Positions 27,376 to 38,455 of a stretch of DNA of 64,000 nt are shown in pieces; position 1 is the stretch's first letter, and each line of letters starts with the position of its first letter. Source of the stretch: Marinobacterium sediminicola (GTDB lineage: Bacteria > Pseudomonadota > Gammaproteobacteria > Pseudomonadales > Balneatricaceae); the NCBI RefSeq assembly GCF_022343685.1, contig NZ_CP092123.1, forward strand, positions 3,410,001 through 3,474,000. Reading direction: 5' to 3'. The notes under the pieces are model-generated. The model was not told the origin of the DNA and searched no databases. It saw nothing but the letters and a program-made list of their open reading frames with translations. The position numbers and the translations under genes are program-made.

Positions 27376-27777
27376 TCAGCCCTTTTCCGGCAGGGCGCGA
27401 ATATGGCCCTGCTGGTCGATGGCGACCTGCACACACTCTGCGCTGGTTACCTTGCGCAGCTCATTACCGTCAGGACAACGTCCCCAGACCTCGACCTGAA
27501 TCCGCAGCGAGCTGTGTCCGCGCTCCAGAATACGGGTATAAAAGCTCAGCACTGTCCCCCGCATCACCGGCGACATGAACCCCATGCGCCCGACCGATAC
27601 TGTGGCGACGCGCCCCCGCGCTTCCTGACCGGCGCGAATCTCGCTGGCCAGTACCAGCTGGGAAGCAACCCAGCCGCCATAGACATCACCAAACATGTTC
27701 ACTGCCTCGGCCCCTGCTGGCAATTGCAGGCTGAGTTCACCCTCGGGCGTCAGCAGCTGATCTTCACTTGTTGTCAT
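27376..27777 (-). CDS. YciA-type acyl-CoA thioesterase
   Basis: The 133-residue single hot-dog-fold protein matches YciA: NMFGDVYGGWVASQLVLAS contains the catalytic Asp after the N-M-F-G block, followed by GRVATVSVGRMGFMSPVMRGTVLSFYTRI and EVWGRC. Such enzymes hydrolyse acyl-CoA thioesters to free acid and CoA in the cytoplasm. The start at ATG 27777 aligns with YciA proteins; an in-frame ATG at 27834 would add a non-conserved extension. It is divergent from pstS. Confidence 0.88.
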   Translation of the reverse strand: MTTSEDQLLTPEGELSLQLPAGAEAVNMFGDVYGGWVASQLVLASEIRAGQEARGRVATVSVGRMGFMSPVMRGTVLSFYTRILERGHSSLRIQVEVWGRCPDGNELRKVTSAECVQVAIDQQGHIRALPEKG

Positions 27778-27908
27778 TATCGCGATCTCACTGGATGGAA
27801 AGAGCCTCAGGCCCCGGTTTATGCTGCAGTGCATATACTACTAAGGTTGCACCCAAAGGACAGCCCCAAAAACATCCGGTCATCACGGACTGACGGCTAA
27901 TGCCATCA

Positions 27909-27942
27909 CTGTCATCTTAACGTCACAAAGCCTCCCTATAGT
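27909..27942 (+). promoter_or_regulatory. Pho box and -10 element of the pstS promoter
   Basis: CTGTCATCTTAACGTCAC (27909-27926) matches the PhoB consensus of two CTGTMAY repeats around a four-base spacer: the first half is perfect and the second has two mismatches. TATAGT at 27937-27942 lies 10 bp downstream, the standard spacing at which a Pho box replaces the -35 element. pstS begins 44 bp after the -10. This predicts activation by phosphorylated PhoB at low phosphate. Confidence 0.88.
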
Positions 27943-27986: not shown

Positions 27987-28958
27987 ATGATGAAACCGAT
28001 GAAAAAGCTGTTTGCAGCCGTCGCCATGACCGCGACCTGTTTCACTGCTCAGGCAAGCGACTTGCTCGACCCGAACCTGCCGGTATACGAAAAAGCCTCT
28101 GGCGTTTCCGGTAACCTGTCCAGTGTCGGCTCTGACACGCTGGCGAACCTGATGACCCTCTGGGCTGAAGAGTTCAAGCGTAACTACCCGAACGTCAACA
28201 TTCAGATCCAGGCTGCAGGCTCCTCAACTGCGCCGCCAGCACTGACTGAAGGTACGTCCAACATCGGCCCGATGAGCCGTAAGATGAAGGACAAGGAAAT
28301 CGAAGCGTTCGAGAAGAAGTTCGGTTACAAGCCGACTCCGGTCGCTGTTGCCATCGACGCACTGGCGGTCTTTGCACACAAGGACAACCCCATTCAGGGC
28401 ATGAGCATCGACCAGGTTGACGCCGTGTTCTCTTCTACCCGCAAGTGTGGTGCTCCGGAATCAATCACCAAGTGGAACCAGCTGGGTGTCAGCGGCTCTC
28501 TGGCTGATCAGAGCATCCAGCTGTTCGGTCGTAACTCTGTATCCGGCACCTATGGCTACTTCAAGAAAGTGGCTCTGTGTAAAGGCGACTTCCAGAACGG
28601 CGTAAACGAACAGCCGGGTTCTGCCTCTGTTGTTCAGTCCGTTTCCACTTCTGTTAACGCGCTGGGCTACTCCGGCATCGGCTACAAGACCGCATCTGTC
28701 CGCGCTCTGCCACTGTCCAAGTCCGGTACTGACTATGTTGATCCGACCCCGGAAAACGCTGTAACCGGCAAGTACCCGCTGGCGCGCTCTCTGTACGTTT
28801 ACATCAACAAGAAGCCGGGCCAGGACCTGCAGCCGCTGGAGCGTGAGTTCCTGAAGCTGGTTCTGTCCAAGGTAGGTCAGGAAGTGGTCGTAAAGGACGG
28901 CTACATCCCGCTGCCGGCCAAGGTTGTTGAGAAGCAGATGAAGGATCTGGGCCTGTAA
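27987..28958 (+). CDS. pstS: Phosphate ABC transporter, periplasmic binding protein
   Basis: The 323-residue protein begins with a classical signal peptide ([22 protein letters not shown], cleavage after AQA). The mature domain contains [11 protein letters not shown] and [12 protein letters not shown], which contribute to the phosphate-binding pocket, and [12 protein letters not shown]. It captures phosphate in the periplasm and hands it to PstC/PstA. It stands under its own Pho-box promoter and ends in a strong terminator, so it can be expressed at a higher level than the downstream permease genes. The choice between ATG 27987 and ATG 27990 is not resolved. Confidence 0.96.
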
Positions 28959-28980
28959 GGTACCGAACCTGATCTGGAAG

Positions 28981-29005
28981 GGGAGCCCAAGGGCTCCCTT
29001 TTTTT
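28981..29005 (+). terminator. Intrinsic terminator after pstS
   Basis: GGGAGCCC (28981-28988) pairs with GGGCTCCC (28991-28998) and is followed by seven Ts. It lies 22 bp after the pstS stop and should reduce read-through from pstS into pstC. Confidence 0.92.
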
Positions 29006-29007
29006 GC

Positions 29008-29029
29008 TTTTGTTACAGCTGTAACAAAA
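29008..29029. repeat. 22-bp perfect palindrome overlapping the pstC Pho box
   Basis: Positions 29008-29018 and 29019-29029 are exact inverted repeats centred on AGCT. The right arm, CTGTAACAAAA, is the first half of the pstC Pho box, so the left arm offers the same half-site on the opposite strand. It could be an extra PhoB contact, another regulator's operator, or part of a 3' hairpin. Confidence 0.8.
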
Positions 29030-29052
29030 AAGTCATCTATTTGACTTATTGT
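29019..29052 (+). promoter_or_regulatory. Pho box and -10 element of a separate pstC promoter
   Basis: CTGTAACAAAAAAGTCAT (29019-29036) fits the two-repeat PhoB consensus with mismatches at one base of the first half and two of the second. TATTGT at 29047-29052 follows after 10 bp. The element lies immediately after the pstS terminator and 42 bp before the pstC ATG, indicating that pstCAB-phoU has its own PhoB-dependent promoter. Confidence 0.78.
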
Positions 29053-29093
29053 ACCCGCCATATCAAGTTCGACACTTCTCAGGACCCTCGACC

Positions 29094-31358
29094 ATGAGTA
29101 TTGAGCAAACCAACACCGTGCCGGAGCTGGACTTCAACACCCCCGCTCAGCGCCGTCTGCGACAGGCGCGCATGCTGAAGGACAAGTTGGCGGCCAGCGG
29201 CATTGCCATCGGCGGTATCAGCGTCATCCTCGCTGTCGTCATGATCTTTTTCTACCTGCTGTACGAGGTTGCGCCGCTGTTCCGTTCGGCCAGTATCGAG
29301 CCCTGGGGCGGCCAGCAGGAAGTGAGTTATGCCGTGCCCGGTCAGGGCCGTACGCTCTATCTGGCCGTCGAGGAGCAGGCCGAGATCGGTTTCCGTGCCA
29401 CCGACAGAGGTCAACTGGTCTTTTTTGACAGCACCAGTGGCCAGGTATTGAAAGAAGAAACACTGTCACTGCCGGAAGGCGTCACGATCAGCAGCTTTAC
29501 ATTGCTGTCTGAAGCCAGCCAGACCTTCGCGCTCGGCCTCAGCGATGGCGGCGTCAAGGTGATCAAGCACAACTACAAGGCCACCTATCCCAACGGCAAG
29601 CGCGTGCTTATTCCCGAGCTGGTCTATCCCTTGGGCGAAGACGCCCTGCAGGTCGCGGACGGGCCCATCGAACAGCTGGCGGTCAACCGCGACAGCGACG
29701 AATGGAGCCTGATTGCCCTGAGTCAGGGCCAGCTGGTCGAGCTGGCCCTGTCCATGAGCGAGAACTTCCTCACCGGTGAGGTTGAAATCGAACAGAGCAG
29801 CCGCACCCTGCCCAACATCGGTGTCAAACCGAACAAGCTGCTGCTGACCCCGGACAGACGCTGGCTGATGGCCAGTCTGCCGCAGGGCAAGGTTGCGGTC
29901 ATGGCACTGGGACGCAACCCGGAAGTCACGCAGCTGGTCGAGGTCTCCAAAACCGAGATCACCAGCATTGAACTGCTGCTGGGCGGCAACTCGCTGATCA
30001 TCGGCGACGCCAAAGGAAAGCTGTCGCAGTGGTTTTTCGTGCGCGATGAAGCCAACCAGTTCCAGCTGACCCATATCCGCAGCTTTGAACACAACAGCAG
30101 CCCCGTTATCAACCTGACCACCGAGCAGCGCCGCAAGGGCATCGTTACCCTGGCCGCTGACGGCACCCTGAACCTGTACAGCAGCACCGCCAACCGTCAG
30201 GCACTCAGCGAGCCCCTGTTCAGCGGAGCAGCCGACGCCATCGCTCTGGCACCGCGTGCCGATGCCCTGCTGGTTCAGCACGGCGACCGCCTGAGCTTCT
30301 GGCACGTCGACAACGAACATCCAGAAATTTCCTGGAGCGCCTATTGGGAGAAGGTCTGGTATGAAGGCTACGAGGAGCCGGAGTACGTATGGCAGTCTTC
30401 CGCGTCCAACAACGACTTCGAACCCAAATACAGCCTGATGCCGCTGGCATTCGGCACCCTGAAAGCGGCGTTCTACGCCATGCTGCTGGCGACGCCGCTG
30501 GCCATCTGTGGCGCGATCTATACCGCCTACTTCATGGTGCCGGCGATGCGTCGCAAGGTGAAGCCGTTCATCGAGCTGATGGAAGCCCTGCCAACCGTTA
30601 TTCTGGGCTTCCTCGCCGGCCTCTGGCTGGCTCCGTTCATGGAAGCCAATCTGGCGGGCATCTTCGTCTGTCTGTTGATCATCCCGGTGGCAATCGTGCT
30701 ATTCGGTTTTGCCTGGAACAACATGCCCAACAAGATCCGCTTCCTGCTGCCGGAAGGCTGGGACGCTGCCCTGCTGATTCCGGTCGTAATTCTGGCGACC
30801 TGGGTGGGACTTGGTTTGGCAAGCCCCATTGAAGATGCTCTGTTCGGTGGCCACATGCCGACCTGGCTGAGCAACGAAGTCGGCATTCCCTACGACCAGC
30901 GCAACGCTCTGGTAGTCGGTATTGCCATGGGCTTTGCGGTCATTCCGACCATCTTCTCGATCACCGAGGACGCCATCTTCGCTGTACCCAAGCACCTGAG
31001 CTACGGCTCTCTGGCTCTGGGCGCCACTTCCTGGCAGACCCTGACCCGCGTGGTGCTGCCGACTGCCAGCCCGGGTATCTTTTCCGCGCTGATGATCGGC
31101 ATGGGCCGTGCCGTCGGCGAAACTATGATCGTACTGATGGCCACCGGTAACACCCCGATCATGGACGTCAACATTTTCGAGGGCATGCGTACTCTTGCCG
31201 CCAACATCGCGGTGGAAATGCCGGAGTCAGAGGTCGGCAGTACCCACTACCGCACCCTGTTCCTGGCCGCCTTCGTGCTGTTCCTGTTCACCTTCGTGGT
31301 GAATACCCTGGCCGAAGCGATCCGCCAGCACCTGCGCAAGAAATACGGTTCCCTGTGA
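29094..31358 (+). CDS. pstC: Phosphate ABC transporter permease PstC, long form
   Basis: The 754-residue protein is more than twice the E. coli PstC length. One membrane segment near residues 34-58 is followed by about 400 extracytoplasmic residues with repeated strand-like units (TVLSEASQTFALGLSDGGVK, LTPDRRWLMASLPQGKVAVM, LLLGGNSLIIGDAKGKLSQW) suggestive of a beta-propeller. The permease core then starts near residue 450 with EALPTVILGFLAGLWLAP and the EAA loop SYGSLALGATSWQTL. Long PstC proteins of this kind occur in Pseudomonas and marine gammaproteobacteria, from memory. The start at ATG 29094 has AGGA upstream; the frame is open earlier but into the promoter. Confidence 0.94.
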   Translation: MSIEQTNTVPELDFNTPAQRRLRQARMLKDKLAASGIAIGGISVILAVVMIFFYLLYEVAPLFRSASIEPWGGQQEVSYAVPGQGRTLYLAVEEQAEIGFRATDRGQLVFFDSTSGQVLKEETLSLPEGVTISSFTLLSEASQTFALGLSDGGVKVIKHNYKATYPNGKRVLIPELVYPLGEDALQVADGPIEQLAVNRDSDEWSLIALSQGQLVELALSMSENFLTGEVEIEQSSRTLPNIGVKPNKLLLTPDRRWLMASLPQGKVAVMALGRNPEVTQLVEVSKTEITSIELLLGGNSLIIGDAKGKLSQWFFVRDEANQFQLTHIRSFEHNSSPVINLTTEQRRKGIVTLAADGTLNLYSSTANRQALSEPLFSGAADAIALAPRADALLVQHGDRLSFWHVDNEHPEISWSAYWEKVWYEGYEEPEYVWQSSASNNDFEPKYSLMPLAFGTLKAAFYAMLLATPLAICGAIYTAYFMVPAMRRKVKPFIELMEALPTVILGFLAGLWLAPFMEANLAGIFVCLLIIPVAIVLFGFAWNNMPNKIRFLLPEGWDAALLIPVVILATWVGLGLASPIEDALFGGHMPTWLSNEVGIPYDQRNALVVGIAMGFAVIPTIFSITEDAIFAVPKHLSYGSLALGATSWQTLTRVVLPTASPGIFSALMIGMGRAVGETMIVLMATGNTPIMDVNIFEGMRTLAANIAVEMPESEVGSTHYRTLFLAAFVLFLFTFVVNTLAEAIRQHLRKKYGSL

Positions 31359-36336: not shown

Positions 36337-36370
36337 GTGTCATATTAGTGTAACGGAAACGTCTTGTAAT
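36337..36370 (+). promoter_or_regulatory. Pho box and -10 element of the phoB promoter
   Basis: GTGTCATATTAGTGTAAC (36337-36354) differs from the ideal PhoB repeat pair only at the first base of each half. TGTAAT at 36365-36370 follows after 10 bp and matches TATAAT at five of six positions. This predicts positive autoregulation of phoB-phoR. Confidence 0.87.
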
Positions 36371-36409
36371 AGAGGCCTCCGATAACACCTGTAGATGAGG
36401 CAGAAAACG

Positions 36410-37105
36410 ATGTCTGCATCAAAACGCGTGCTGATCGTCGATGACGAAGCACCTATCCGTGAGATGATCGCCGTTGCCCTGGAAATGGCCGGCTACGAAT
36501 GTAGCGAAGCCGACAATGCCCAGGACGCTCATGCCCAGATCGTGGACAACAAGCCGGACATGGTGCTGCTGGACTGGATGATGCCCGGCACCAGCGGAAT
36601 CGAGTTTGCACGTCGCCTGCGCAAGGAAGAAGTGACCGCCGATATCCCGATCATCATGCTGACGGCCAAGACGGATGAAGACAACAAGATCAAGGGACTG
36701 GAAGCGGGTGTTGATGACTACATCACCAAGCCCTTTTCACCCCGTGAACTGGTTGCTCGCCTCAAGGCGGTCCTGCGCCGCACAACCCCCAAGGGTGTGG
36801 AAGAACCCGTCACTGTCGACGGCCTGACACTGGACCCGGTTTCTCATCGCGTGACCGCCGATGACCTGCCGGTCGATCTGGGACCCACCGAGTTCCGCCT
36901 GTTACAGTTCTTCATGACCCATCCGGACCGCGCCTATTCCCGCAGCCAGCTGCTGGATATGGTCTGGGGCGGCAACGTCTACGTCGAAGAGCGCACCGTG
37001 GATGTGCATATCCGTCGCCTGCGCAAGGCGCTGGGTGAGCGTCATGACTATCTGGTCCAGACTGTACGGGGCACCGGTTACCGCTTCTCGGCCAAGGTCG
37101 CTTGA
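36410..37105 (+). CDS. phoB: Phosphate regulon response regulator
   Basis: The 231-residue OmpR-type regulator has acidic residues at 11-12 (VDDE), phospho-acceptor Asp55 (LLDWMMPG) and Lys107 (ITKPF). The winged-helix domain holds the PhoB-type recognition region [17 protein letters not shown] and ends [10 protein letters not shown]. The start at ATG 36410 has GAGG upstream and gives the standard length; ATG 36395 is an alternative. Its predicted sites lie upstream of pstS, pstC and itself. phoR follows by 48 bp. Confidence 0.97.
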
Positions 37106-37153: not shown

Positions 37154-38455
37154 ATGCATGTATCACGACACGCCCTGATTATCAGTCTGATGGCACTGGC
37201 CTCCACCGGCTTGCTGGTTGGCCTTCTATTCGGCTATCCGATGGCAGGGCTCAGCCTGGGACTTCTGCTGTGGAGCCTGAAGCAGGTTCGTCAGTTTAAT
37301 CGACTCAGTGACTGGCTACAGCGCGAGGATGGCTCAGAACCCCCGGAAGCGGATGGCGCCTGGGGCGATCTGTTCGACGAGCTGTCGCGCCTGCAGAAGC
37401 GCAGTCGTTCGCGCGAGCAGTATTTGCGCGGCATCATCTCCCGCTTTCAGCAGTCCTCGGCCGCGCTCAACGACGCCATTGTCATCATCGACAACCAGAA
37501 CAATCTGGAGTGGTGGAACCGCTCTGCCGATCGCCTACTGGGGTTAAAAGCGACCTCTGACCGCGGCAAACCGCTGATGAATCTGCTGCGTGATCCCCGT
37601 TTTGTGCGCTACTTCCGCAAGGGGCATTATCAGGAACCATTGGAACTGCCATCTCCGATCAATGGCGATATTCAGCTGCAATACCAGATTACCAAGTTCG
37701 GGGAAGGCGACCGCCTGCTGGTGGCGCGTGACATCACCCGTCTGATGCGTCTTGAGCAGACGCGACAGGACTTTGTCGCCAATGCATCCCATGAGTTGCG
37801 CACACCACTGACAGTCATTCGGGGTTATCTGGAAACTTTTCTCGATCAGGCGCTGCCACGCCCGCTGGAACGCGGCCTTGAACAGATGCAGCAGCAGGCC
37901 GGACGCATGGAAGGTCTGGTTACCGACCTGTTACTGCTGTCGCGCCTTGAGGCCAGCCACCATATCAGCGATGAACATCCAATATTGATCCATGATCTGA
38001 TTCAGCGCATGCATGAAGACGCCGAAGCCCTGGCCGCTGGCCGTGGTCACAGCTTCAGTCTGGATGTGGACAAGGAATACGACCTGCTGGGTCAGGCCAA
38101 CGAGCTTCAAAGCGCCTTCTCCAACCTGGTGTTCAACGCCGTACGCTATACCCCGGACAACGGTCATATCACGCTGCGCTGGTGGGTCGATCACAAGGGC
38201 GGCCACTTCTCCGTCAGTGACGACGGGATCGGCATCGAGGCCATGCATATCCCGCGCTTGACCGAACGCTTCTATCGCATCGACGAAAGCCGCTCCTCTG
38301 CCAGCGGTGGTACCGGCCTGGGGCTGGCCATCGTCAAACATGTGCTGGTCCGCCACGATGCCCATCTGAGCATCGACAGCATACCGGGCAAGGGCAGCAC
38401 CTTTACCTGCCACTTCCCGCCCGACATGGTCGTCCCGGTCAACGACGGGGAGTGA
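37154..38455 (+). CDS. phoR: Phosphate regulon sensor histidine kinase
   Basis: The 433-residue kinase has a membrane hairpin within residues 8-40, no sizable periplasmic domain, a basic linker, a PAS domain (about 100-200) and the kinase core with His213 in NASHELRTPLTVIRGY. N box SNLVFNAVRYTPDN and G boxes VSDDGIGIE and GGTGLGLAIVKH are intact. It phosphorylates PhoB when Pst and PhoU report low phosphate. The stop overlaps the convergent cysZ end by 17 bp. Confidence 0.96.
   Translation: MHVSRHALIISLMALASTGLLVGLLFGYPMAGLSLGLLLWSLKQVRQFNRLSDWLQREDGSEPPEADGAWGDLFDELSRLQKRSRSREQYLRGIISRFQQSSAALNDAIVIIDNQNNLEWWNRSADRLLGLKATSDRGKPLMNLLRDPRFVRYFRKGHYQEPLELPSPINGDIQLQYQITKFGEGDRLLVARDITRLMRLEQTRQDFVANASHELRTPLTVIRGYLETFLDQALPRPLERGLEQMQQQAGRMEGLVTDLLLLSRLEASHHISDEHPILIHDLIQRMHEDAEALAAGRGHSFSLDVDKEYDLLGQANELQSAFSNLVFNAVRYTPDNGHITLRWWVDHKGGHFSVSDDGIGIEAMHIPRLTERFYRIDESRSSASGGTGLGLAIVKHVLVRHDAHLSIDSIPGKGSTFTCHFPPDMVVPVNDGE

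Follow-up and report, generated by a model that had tools for sequence, protein, structure and literature searches.

The pstC gene of Marinobacterium sediminicola very likely has a PhoB-dependent promoter of its own directly behind the terminator of pstS, and the Pho box of this promoter is preceded by a conserved element, a PhoB-type half-site in inverted orientation that abuts the first of the two direct half-sites. The site lies in a window of 64,000 nucleotides (the whole stretch of DNA analysed) within a 3.55-Mb Marinobacterium genome, and was compared across the family Nitrincolaceae. The initial annotation had described here a terminator, a palindrome and an independent Pho promoter in close succession. 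The new part is the left arm of the palindrome, read as a conserved inverted PhoB-type half-site, which would make this a variant Pho promoter architecture. The features are collected in Table 1.

Table 1. Features of the pstS–pstC intergenic region and of the surrounding pst and pho genes, with the basis of each assignment
Feature	Position	Strand	Basis or remark
pstS promoter: Pho box CTGTCAT-CTTA-ACGTCAC, −10 TATAGT	27909–27942	+	without strong inverted arm
pstS (phosphate-binding protein)	27987–28958	+	TIGR02136, 284.7 bits (cut-off 206.6)
Intrinsic terminator of pstS, hairpin and T7	28977–29005	+	folding, sequence
22-bp perfect palindrome TTTTGTTACAGCTGTAACAAAA	29008–29029		exact
Left arm GTTACAG, inverted PhoB-type half-site (CTGTAAC)	29012–29018	−	spacer 0 to first direct half-site
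First direct PhoB half-site CTGTAAC (palindrome right arm)	29019–29025	+	sequence
Second direct PhoB half-site AAGTCAT, 11-bp period	29030–29036	+	sequence
pstC −10 element TATTGT, 10 nt after second half-site	29047–29052	+	family comparison
pstC ribosome site AGGA	29081–29084	+	read from sequence
pstC (long PstC permease)	29094–31358	+	TIGR02138, 204.3 bits (cut-off 196.45)
phoB (presumed activator)	36395–37105	+	TIGR02154, 356.9 bits (cut-off 296.2)
phoR	37154–38455	+	TIGR02966, 423.1 bits (cut-off 334.2)

Both PhoB and PhoR are encoded within the window, each above its family cut-off, as is expected where a Pho promoter is to work. The window PhoB matches the DNA-binding domain of E. coli PhoB on DNA (entry 1gxp, 4.6e-43), so that the same half-site preference is expected. 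The closest named relatives by PstC (85–92% identity) are M. marinum, M. halophilum, M. weihaiense, M. stanieri and M. alkalitolerans. A gene for a 4HBT thioesterase (27376–27834) is divergent from pstS, with a homologue next to pstS elsewhere, in no fewer than five loci (L237, L261, L290, L291 and L292). No Rfam element was found in the window at gathering score.

The strong terminator claimed after pstS is borne out. A hairpin of 11 pairs (28977–28987 with 28992–29002), whose GC-rich part is GGGAGCC/GGCTCCC, leads into a run of seven T (28999–29005), as is typical of intrinsic terminators. It folds at −19.6 kcal/mol (z −2.2), and 7 of 200 shuffled sequences fold equally well. Among the six close Marinobacterium the hairpin loop and the sequence 5′ of the terminator vary. 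Terminator-like hairpins are widespread in the family, being present within 110 bp upstream in 61 of 71 regions, a count from our own scan without shuffle control.

The pstC Pho box, CTGTAAC-AAAA-AAGTCAT, consists of two 7-bp half-sites of CTGTMAY type with an 11-bp period, the second departing from consensus at its first two bases, and a −10 element follows at 10 nt; the transcript is expected to start near 29058–29060. When the boxes of 80 family pstC regions were anchored on the two half-sites alone, leaving the −10 out of account, TANNNT followed the box at a distance of exactly 10 nt in all 80, the next commonest distances being found in 13 and 12 regions. The same distance holds at 67 of 71 family pstS promoters. 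A scan of the whole window for a box with TANNNT at 10 nt returned two sites only, those of pstS (27909) and pstC (29019), and returned none in five mononucleotide shuffles of the window. It is because of the spacing at pstC and pstS and of this restriction to two sites that a separate PhoB-dependent promoter for pstC is considered very likely, and the independent promoter with a correctly spaced −10 that had been proposed for pstC is thus upheld. By the combination of box, 10 nt and TANNNT, pstC promoters of Nitrincolaceae can be located in a simple way. Since a pho box at pstC is already known in Pseudomonas aeruginosa, this part of the arrangement is ordinary.

A generic sigma-70 scan called no promoter in the pstC upstream region because it demands a −35 hexamer, which is absent from Pho promoters. 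The phoB promoter of the window, with a box at 36337–36354 (GTGTCAT-ATTA-GTGTAAC), fails the strict rule because the hexamer at its −10 position is TGTAAT. The motif ATGACAG occurs 20 bp upstream of this phoB box; ATGACA lies 14 nt before the TGTMAY core at phoB in two g12 genomes (L241, L243), as does GTTACA, at 11 nt, in one g15 genome (L282). A genome-wide count of Pho boxes with two mismatches was set aside as too noisy (126+131 against 84+87 for the control). Between the pstC box and its −10, where a third direct half-site could be, stands TTGACTT (29041–29047), which does not vary among the six close relatives or the four g5 genomes.

The palindrome is exact and lies just after the terminator, as annotated, and its right arm does double as the first PhoB half-site. 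With up to three mismatches allowed, TTTTGTTACAGCTGTAACAAAA has itself as the sole match in the window, and none of 100 shuffles contains one. The core TGTTACANNTGTAACA has a single exact copy in the whole genome. A generic, multi-copy palindromic operator was rejected on this ground, and because up to two mismatches gave nine places against four for the reversed control. Symmetry is poorly kept among relatives: the palindrome is perfect in only two of six, the window and M. halophilum, the central base or an arm differing elsewhere, whereas a fully symmetric operator should retain it. The left arm fared differently. It is kept in all six Marinobacterium with PstC of at least 85% identity, window included, as GTTACAG in five and as ATGACAG in M. 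alkalitolerans, the latter being the exact reverse complement of CTGTCAT, which is given as the E. coli consensus half-site (PMC4415409). The conserved element, as far as sequence comparison can define it, is an inverted PhoB-type half-site and not the palindrome as such. Since ATGACAG abolishes the symmetry while preserving the half-site, the extra factor that the inverted arm had been proposed to recruit would most simply be another PhoB protomer; the arm itself has held up, and the factor is recast.

Conservation beyond the genus was assessed in a family sample of 116 genomes, of which 95 encode PstC at E≤1e-100 and 80 contributed a region. A genus-weighted half-site matrix was built from the same 80 pstC boxes, and an arm scoring at least 6 was called strong. 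By this measure a strong inverted arm lies 0–3 bp upstream of the first half-site at 35 of the 80 promoters, in 9 of 14 genera. The genus-mean arm score (0–4 bp upstream) is −1.05, compared with −8.60 (sd 1.00) when columns are permuted within genera, and no permutation in 5000 reached it. Leaving out the window's genus gives 29 of 74 promoters and 8 of 13 genera, again with 0 of 5000 permutations. At the same place the direct orientation averages −6.3, which disposes of an additional upstream half-site in direct orientation, also one in the 11-bp register, while the reversed matrix scores −6.6 and the complemented matrix −9.6. Shifting the anchors 4–60 bp upstream gives −7.2 to −11.1. Shifts of 12, 20 and 24 bp downstream also score high (−0.7, −2.4 and −3.6), which may reflect that the half-sites are partly complementary to themselves.

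Strong arms are found at all six promoters of Marinobacterium (g1), all five of g13 (which holds Motiliproteus), 12 of 16 in g15 (which holds Amphritea) and 5 of 11 in g16 (which holds Neptuniibacter), then at 2/5 in g7, 2/6 in g11, 1/4 in g2, 1/3 in g10 and 1/7 in g12. The other 45 promoters do without, and in g3, g5, g6, g8 and g14 no pstC promoter has one. The spacer to the box is 0 bp in seven strong arms, 1 in six, 2 in 17 and 3 in five. In 31 of the 35 the arm is exactly RTKACA with G, A or C as the next base, so that the arms vary where PhoB half-sites vary. Within the window, an inverted half-site with box and −10 and at most one mismatch has one match, and none in 100 shuffles. The idea that the arm compensates for a weak box was rejected: the mean box score is 12.6 with an arm (35 promoters) and 11.8 without (45), and arms are therefore not associated with weak boxes.

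Partial hits, contig ends, a divergent PstC or separate examination account for the 15 genomes outside the 80. Two of them (G048, G095) carry the arm and three (G015, G016, G123), judged by eye, do not; two more, in the window's genus but with PstC only 52% identical (G006, G007), have no intergenic region because pstC nearly abuts the PstS gene, and the other eight enter no arm count. Of 26 loci scored outside the family, 15 reach a box score of 14, and only three of these have the arm. A strict pattern was matched in 23 of 369 genomes of the class, with 6 of 27 rows at spacer 0–3, and one such row (L316) precedes a PstC-like ORF, as judged by eye.

The element also recurs at other genes. When the arm was written as ATGACA, ATTACA or GTTACA and the gap left free from 0 to 20, the 116 genomes gave 100 matches. 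The four gaps that correspond to spacers 0–3 account for 70 of them and the remaining 17 gaps for 30; as a control, the patterns in reverse gave a total of 44, by our own sum. For the matches with an assigned locus, the neighbouring genes identified by BLAST were PstC at 28 loci, PstS or a PstS-like protein at five and PHO4-family transporters at five, and at one armed promoter olsF, an ornithine-lipid synthase gene recognised by NF052615 above its cut-off. Eight of the 63 rows of the neighbour table, olsF among them, have no reference-protein match, and one (L296) resembles PstS only weakly, as a divergent sequence (29.8% over 208 residues). Spacers at the 38 loci next to PstC, PstS or PHO4-family genes are 0 (10 loci), 1 (5), 2 (17) and 3 (6).

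A recognisable pstS ORF is present in 71 of the 80 regions. Four of these lack a box with −10. Of the 67 pstS promoters that remain, 7 bear a strong arm (permutation test, 4/5000), in g5, g7, g8 and g15. The window genome's own pstS promoter has no strong arm. In g8 the arm is found at pstS (2/3) and not at pstC (0/4), which suggests gain and loss of the element at individual promoters. Among the armed sites named above are those at PHO4-family transporter genes and at a PstS-like gene of g4, the latter encoding a protein below its NCBIfam cut-off. The PHO4-family assignment is above the Pfam cut-off (one of five tested), and the best NCBIfam match, below cut-off, is sulfate permease, so that these transporters may not carry phosphate. 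The g4 loci with an armed Pho box before a PHO4-family gene (L229, L230, L231, L266, L268) come from genomes without PstC at E≤1e-100.

An arrangement can be proposed from these elements in which transcripts from the pstS promoter would mostly end at the terminator after pstS. During phosphate starvation, PhoB~P would bind the two tandem half-sites just downstream and start a second transcript for pstC and the later genes, the Pho box replacing the −35. The left arm would be a third PhoB half-site, in reverse orientation and directly against the first, and would most likely be taken by an additional PhoB protomer, placed head-to-head to its neighbour; this protomer would raise or tune how far the site is occupied by the tandem dimer, which makes the contact with sigma70. 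The explanation as a whole, with terminator, separate PhoB promoter and third protomer, is thought to be moderately probable, and occupation of the inverted half-site by PhoB is slightly favoured. Against PhoB on the arm stands the spacer, which varies from 0 to 3 bp between genera and is in this respect unusual for a rigid complex; this argues either that the contact is flexible, the receiver domains being attached by a linker, or that the arm is put to different use from genus to genus.

The occupant of the arm might instead be a different member of the PhoB family. AgrR of Cupriavidus is reported to bind an inverted repeat, ATTACA-N4-TGTAAT, together with in-phase direct repeats, both contributing (PMC7380067). 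All known sites had been stated to be direct repeats (PMC4832192), a generalisation against which AgrR runs. It follows from AgrR that the family can use inverted half-sites, and also that the palindrome could be the box of a second regulator of CopR/AgrR/CusR type laid over the Pho box, in which case pstC would answer to metal as well as phosphate. The same half-sites do occur at copR/copA-type loci of the family: 10 loci next to a CopR-type regulator or multicopper oxidase, representing seven distinct sites, were among the matches, and at least 10 of the 70 matches at spacer 0–3 are copper loci. A regulator above the TIGR01387 cut-off is encoded in five of eight genomes of the window's genus, the window genome included, and at spacer 2, as in 17 of the 35 strong pstC arms and in Amphritea, PhoB and CopR sites are indistinguishable by sequence. 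Yet the copper sites are uniform, 7/7 being at spacer 2 (6-4-6 spacing), whereas those at phosphate genes spread over 0–3, and no copper gene lies at any of the 22 matches that were located at other gaps. The window site, at spacer 0, has 6-2-6 spacing (GTTACA-GC-TGTAAC) and is flanked by pstS and pstC in place of metal-resistance genes. M. marinum and M. stanieri moreover keep the arm with no regulator above the TIGR01387 cut-off, although both assemblies are drafts and weaker, sub-threshold relatives occur. A metal regulator at pstC is thus considered unlikely. Seven copper loci (L224, L239, L244, L254, L276, L277, L279) have inverted half-sites at spacer 2 with a further direct half-site, and in L239 both sides are doubled to give four half-sites in mirror order.

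A regulator of the same family could also bind beside PhoB and oppose it, as TctD does in P. aeruginosa, where PhoB and TctD are reported to share a quadripartite site in six promoters with opposite action (PMC4513871). The window genome has 51 matches to the regulator-family model, many of them receiver domains only. The TctD motif, compared here by its description, is reported as a separate 22-nt extension, and the arm matches the PhoB half-site itself, degenerate positions included; an opposing regulator is judged quite improbable.

That the arm is chance or relic sequence, with the tandem box alone doing the work, would agree with the 45 of 80 family promoters that manage without a strong arm, but it is very unlikely given that no permutation matched the data even without the discovery genus and that the arm recurs at other Pho genes. 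Although the stretch folds as a −7.8 kcal/mol hairpin adjoining the terminator, there is scarcely any likelihood that the palindrome functions through structure in RNA or DNA, forming another hairpin in read-through transcripts, as it is so seldom perfect, M. alkalitolerans breaks the outer pairs yet keeps the half-site, in other genera a spacer intervenes and outer bases fail to match, and arms in g11 and g13 occur with no terminator-like hairpin alongside.

A reversed PhoB protomer on the arm would bear on a puzzle of the PhoB family, whose receiver domains are described as dimerising symmetrically and whose DNA-binding domains as sitting in tandem (PMC4415409). A reversed half-site beside a tandem pair would be a natural place for both halves of the dimer to be symmetric. 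We tentatively suggest, at somewhat less than even chances, that the pst and other Pho promoters of Nitrincolaceae contain a three-part PhoB site in which an activating tandem is accompanied by a reversed protomer paired through the symmetric receiver-domain dimer. If so, this extra protomer might determine in which order the Pho promoters are occupied, or the threshold at which each responds, and the reversed half-site could be gained or lost promoter by promoter. Promoters with and without the arm form a ready set for testing its role. A limited search of the literature found no binding or expression data on these species, and a limited search of open-access papers found no inverted PhoB half-site in print.

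The nearest known systems are other Pho promoters. The P. aeruginosa pstC promoter holds a pho box that is gel-shifted by PhoB (PMC4971064, citing Nikata 1996 and Jensen 2006); there, as in the window, pstC has its own box, and the description, which was compared in place of the sequence, mentions no inverted half-site. Three Pseudomonas pstC regions (L100, L101, L108) have no strong arm, with scores of 3.1, 3.1 and 3.4. For P. fluorescens, the pst genes have been treated as a single operon, the Pho box lying upstream of pstS (PMC2225411). Binding sites of PhoB are reported as head-to-tail in P. aeruginosa by HT-SELEX (PMC8041468) and in E. coli by ChIP (PMC10294691), which counts against a reversed protomer. 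The canonical E. coli Pho box, at phoA, pstS and other genes, shares with the window the 11-bp tandem half-sites and the replacement of the −35, and at phoA TATAGT follows the box at 10 nt, the distance of the window −10. No strong inverted arm was found in nine E. coli regions examined, eight of them with a scored box. By eye, the region upstream of ugpB in E. coli K-12 (L301), CTTACAAATGTAACAAAAAAGTTAT, is strikingly similar to the Marinobacterium pstC site (CTTACAA-ATGTAAC-AAAA-AAGTTAT as against GTTACAG-CTGTAAC-AAAA-AAGTCAT in the window).

Among other regulators, the AgrR box of Cupriavidus metallidurans and the CopR/PcoR boxes are likewise described as inverted ATTACA/TGTAAT with an in-phase direct repeat, bound by a PhoB-family protein; these are metal regulators with 6-4-6 spacing, whereas the window site is 6-2-6 and lies at phosphate genes. 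The PhoB/TctD promoters of P. aeruginosa likewise have extra regulator sites beside the Pho box, there a 22-nt extension for a second regulator and in the window one reversed half-site (PMC4513871). More than two recognition elements are also described for ArcA, with three to five direct repeats, and for ComA, with an inverted repeat and a half-site (PMC3798270). The extra elements of ArcA are direct repeats, unlike the reversed half-site of the window, and ComA provides an earlier example of a three-element site (PMC3798270).
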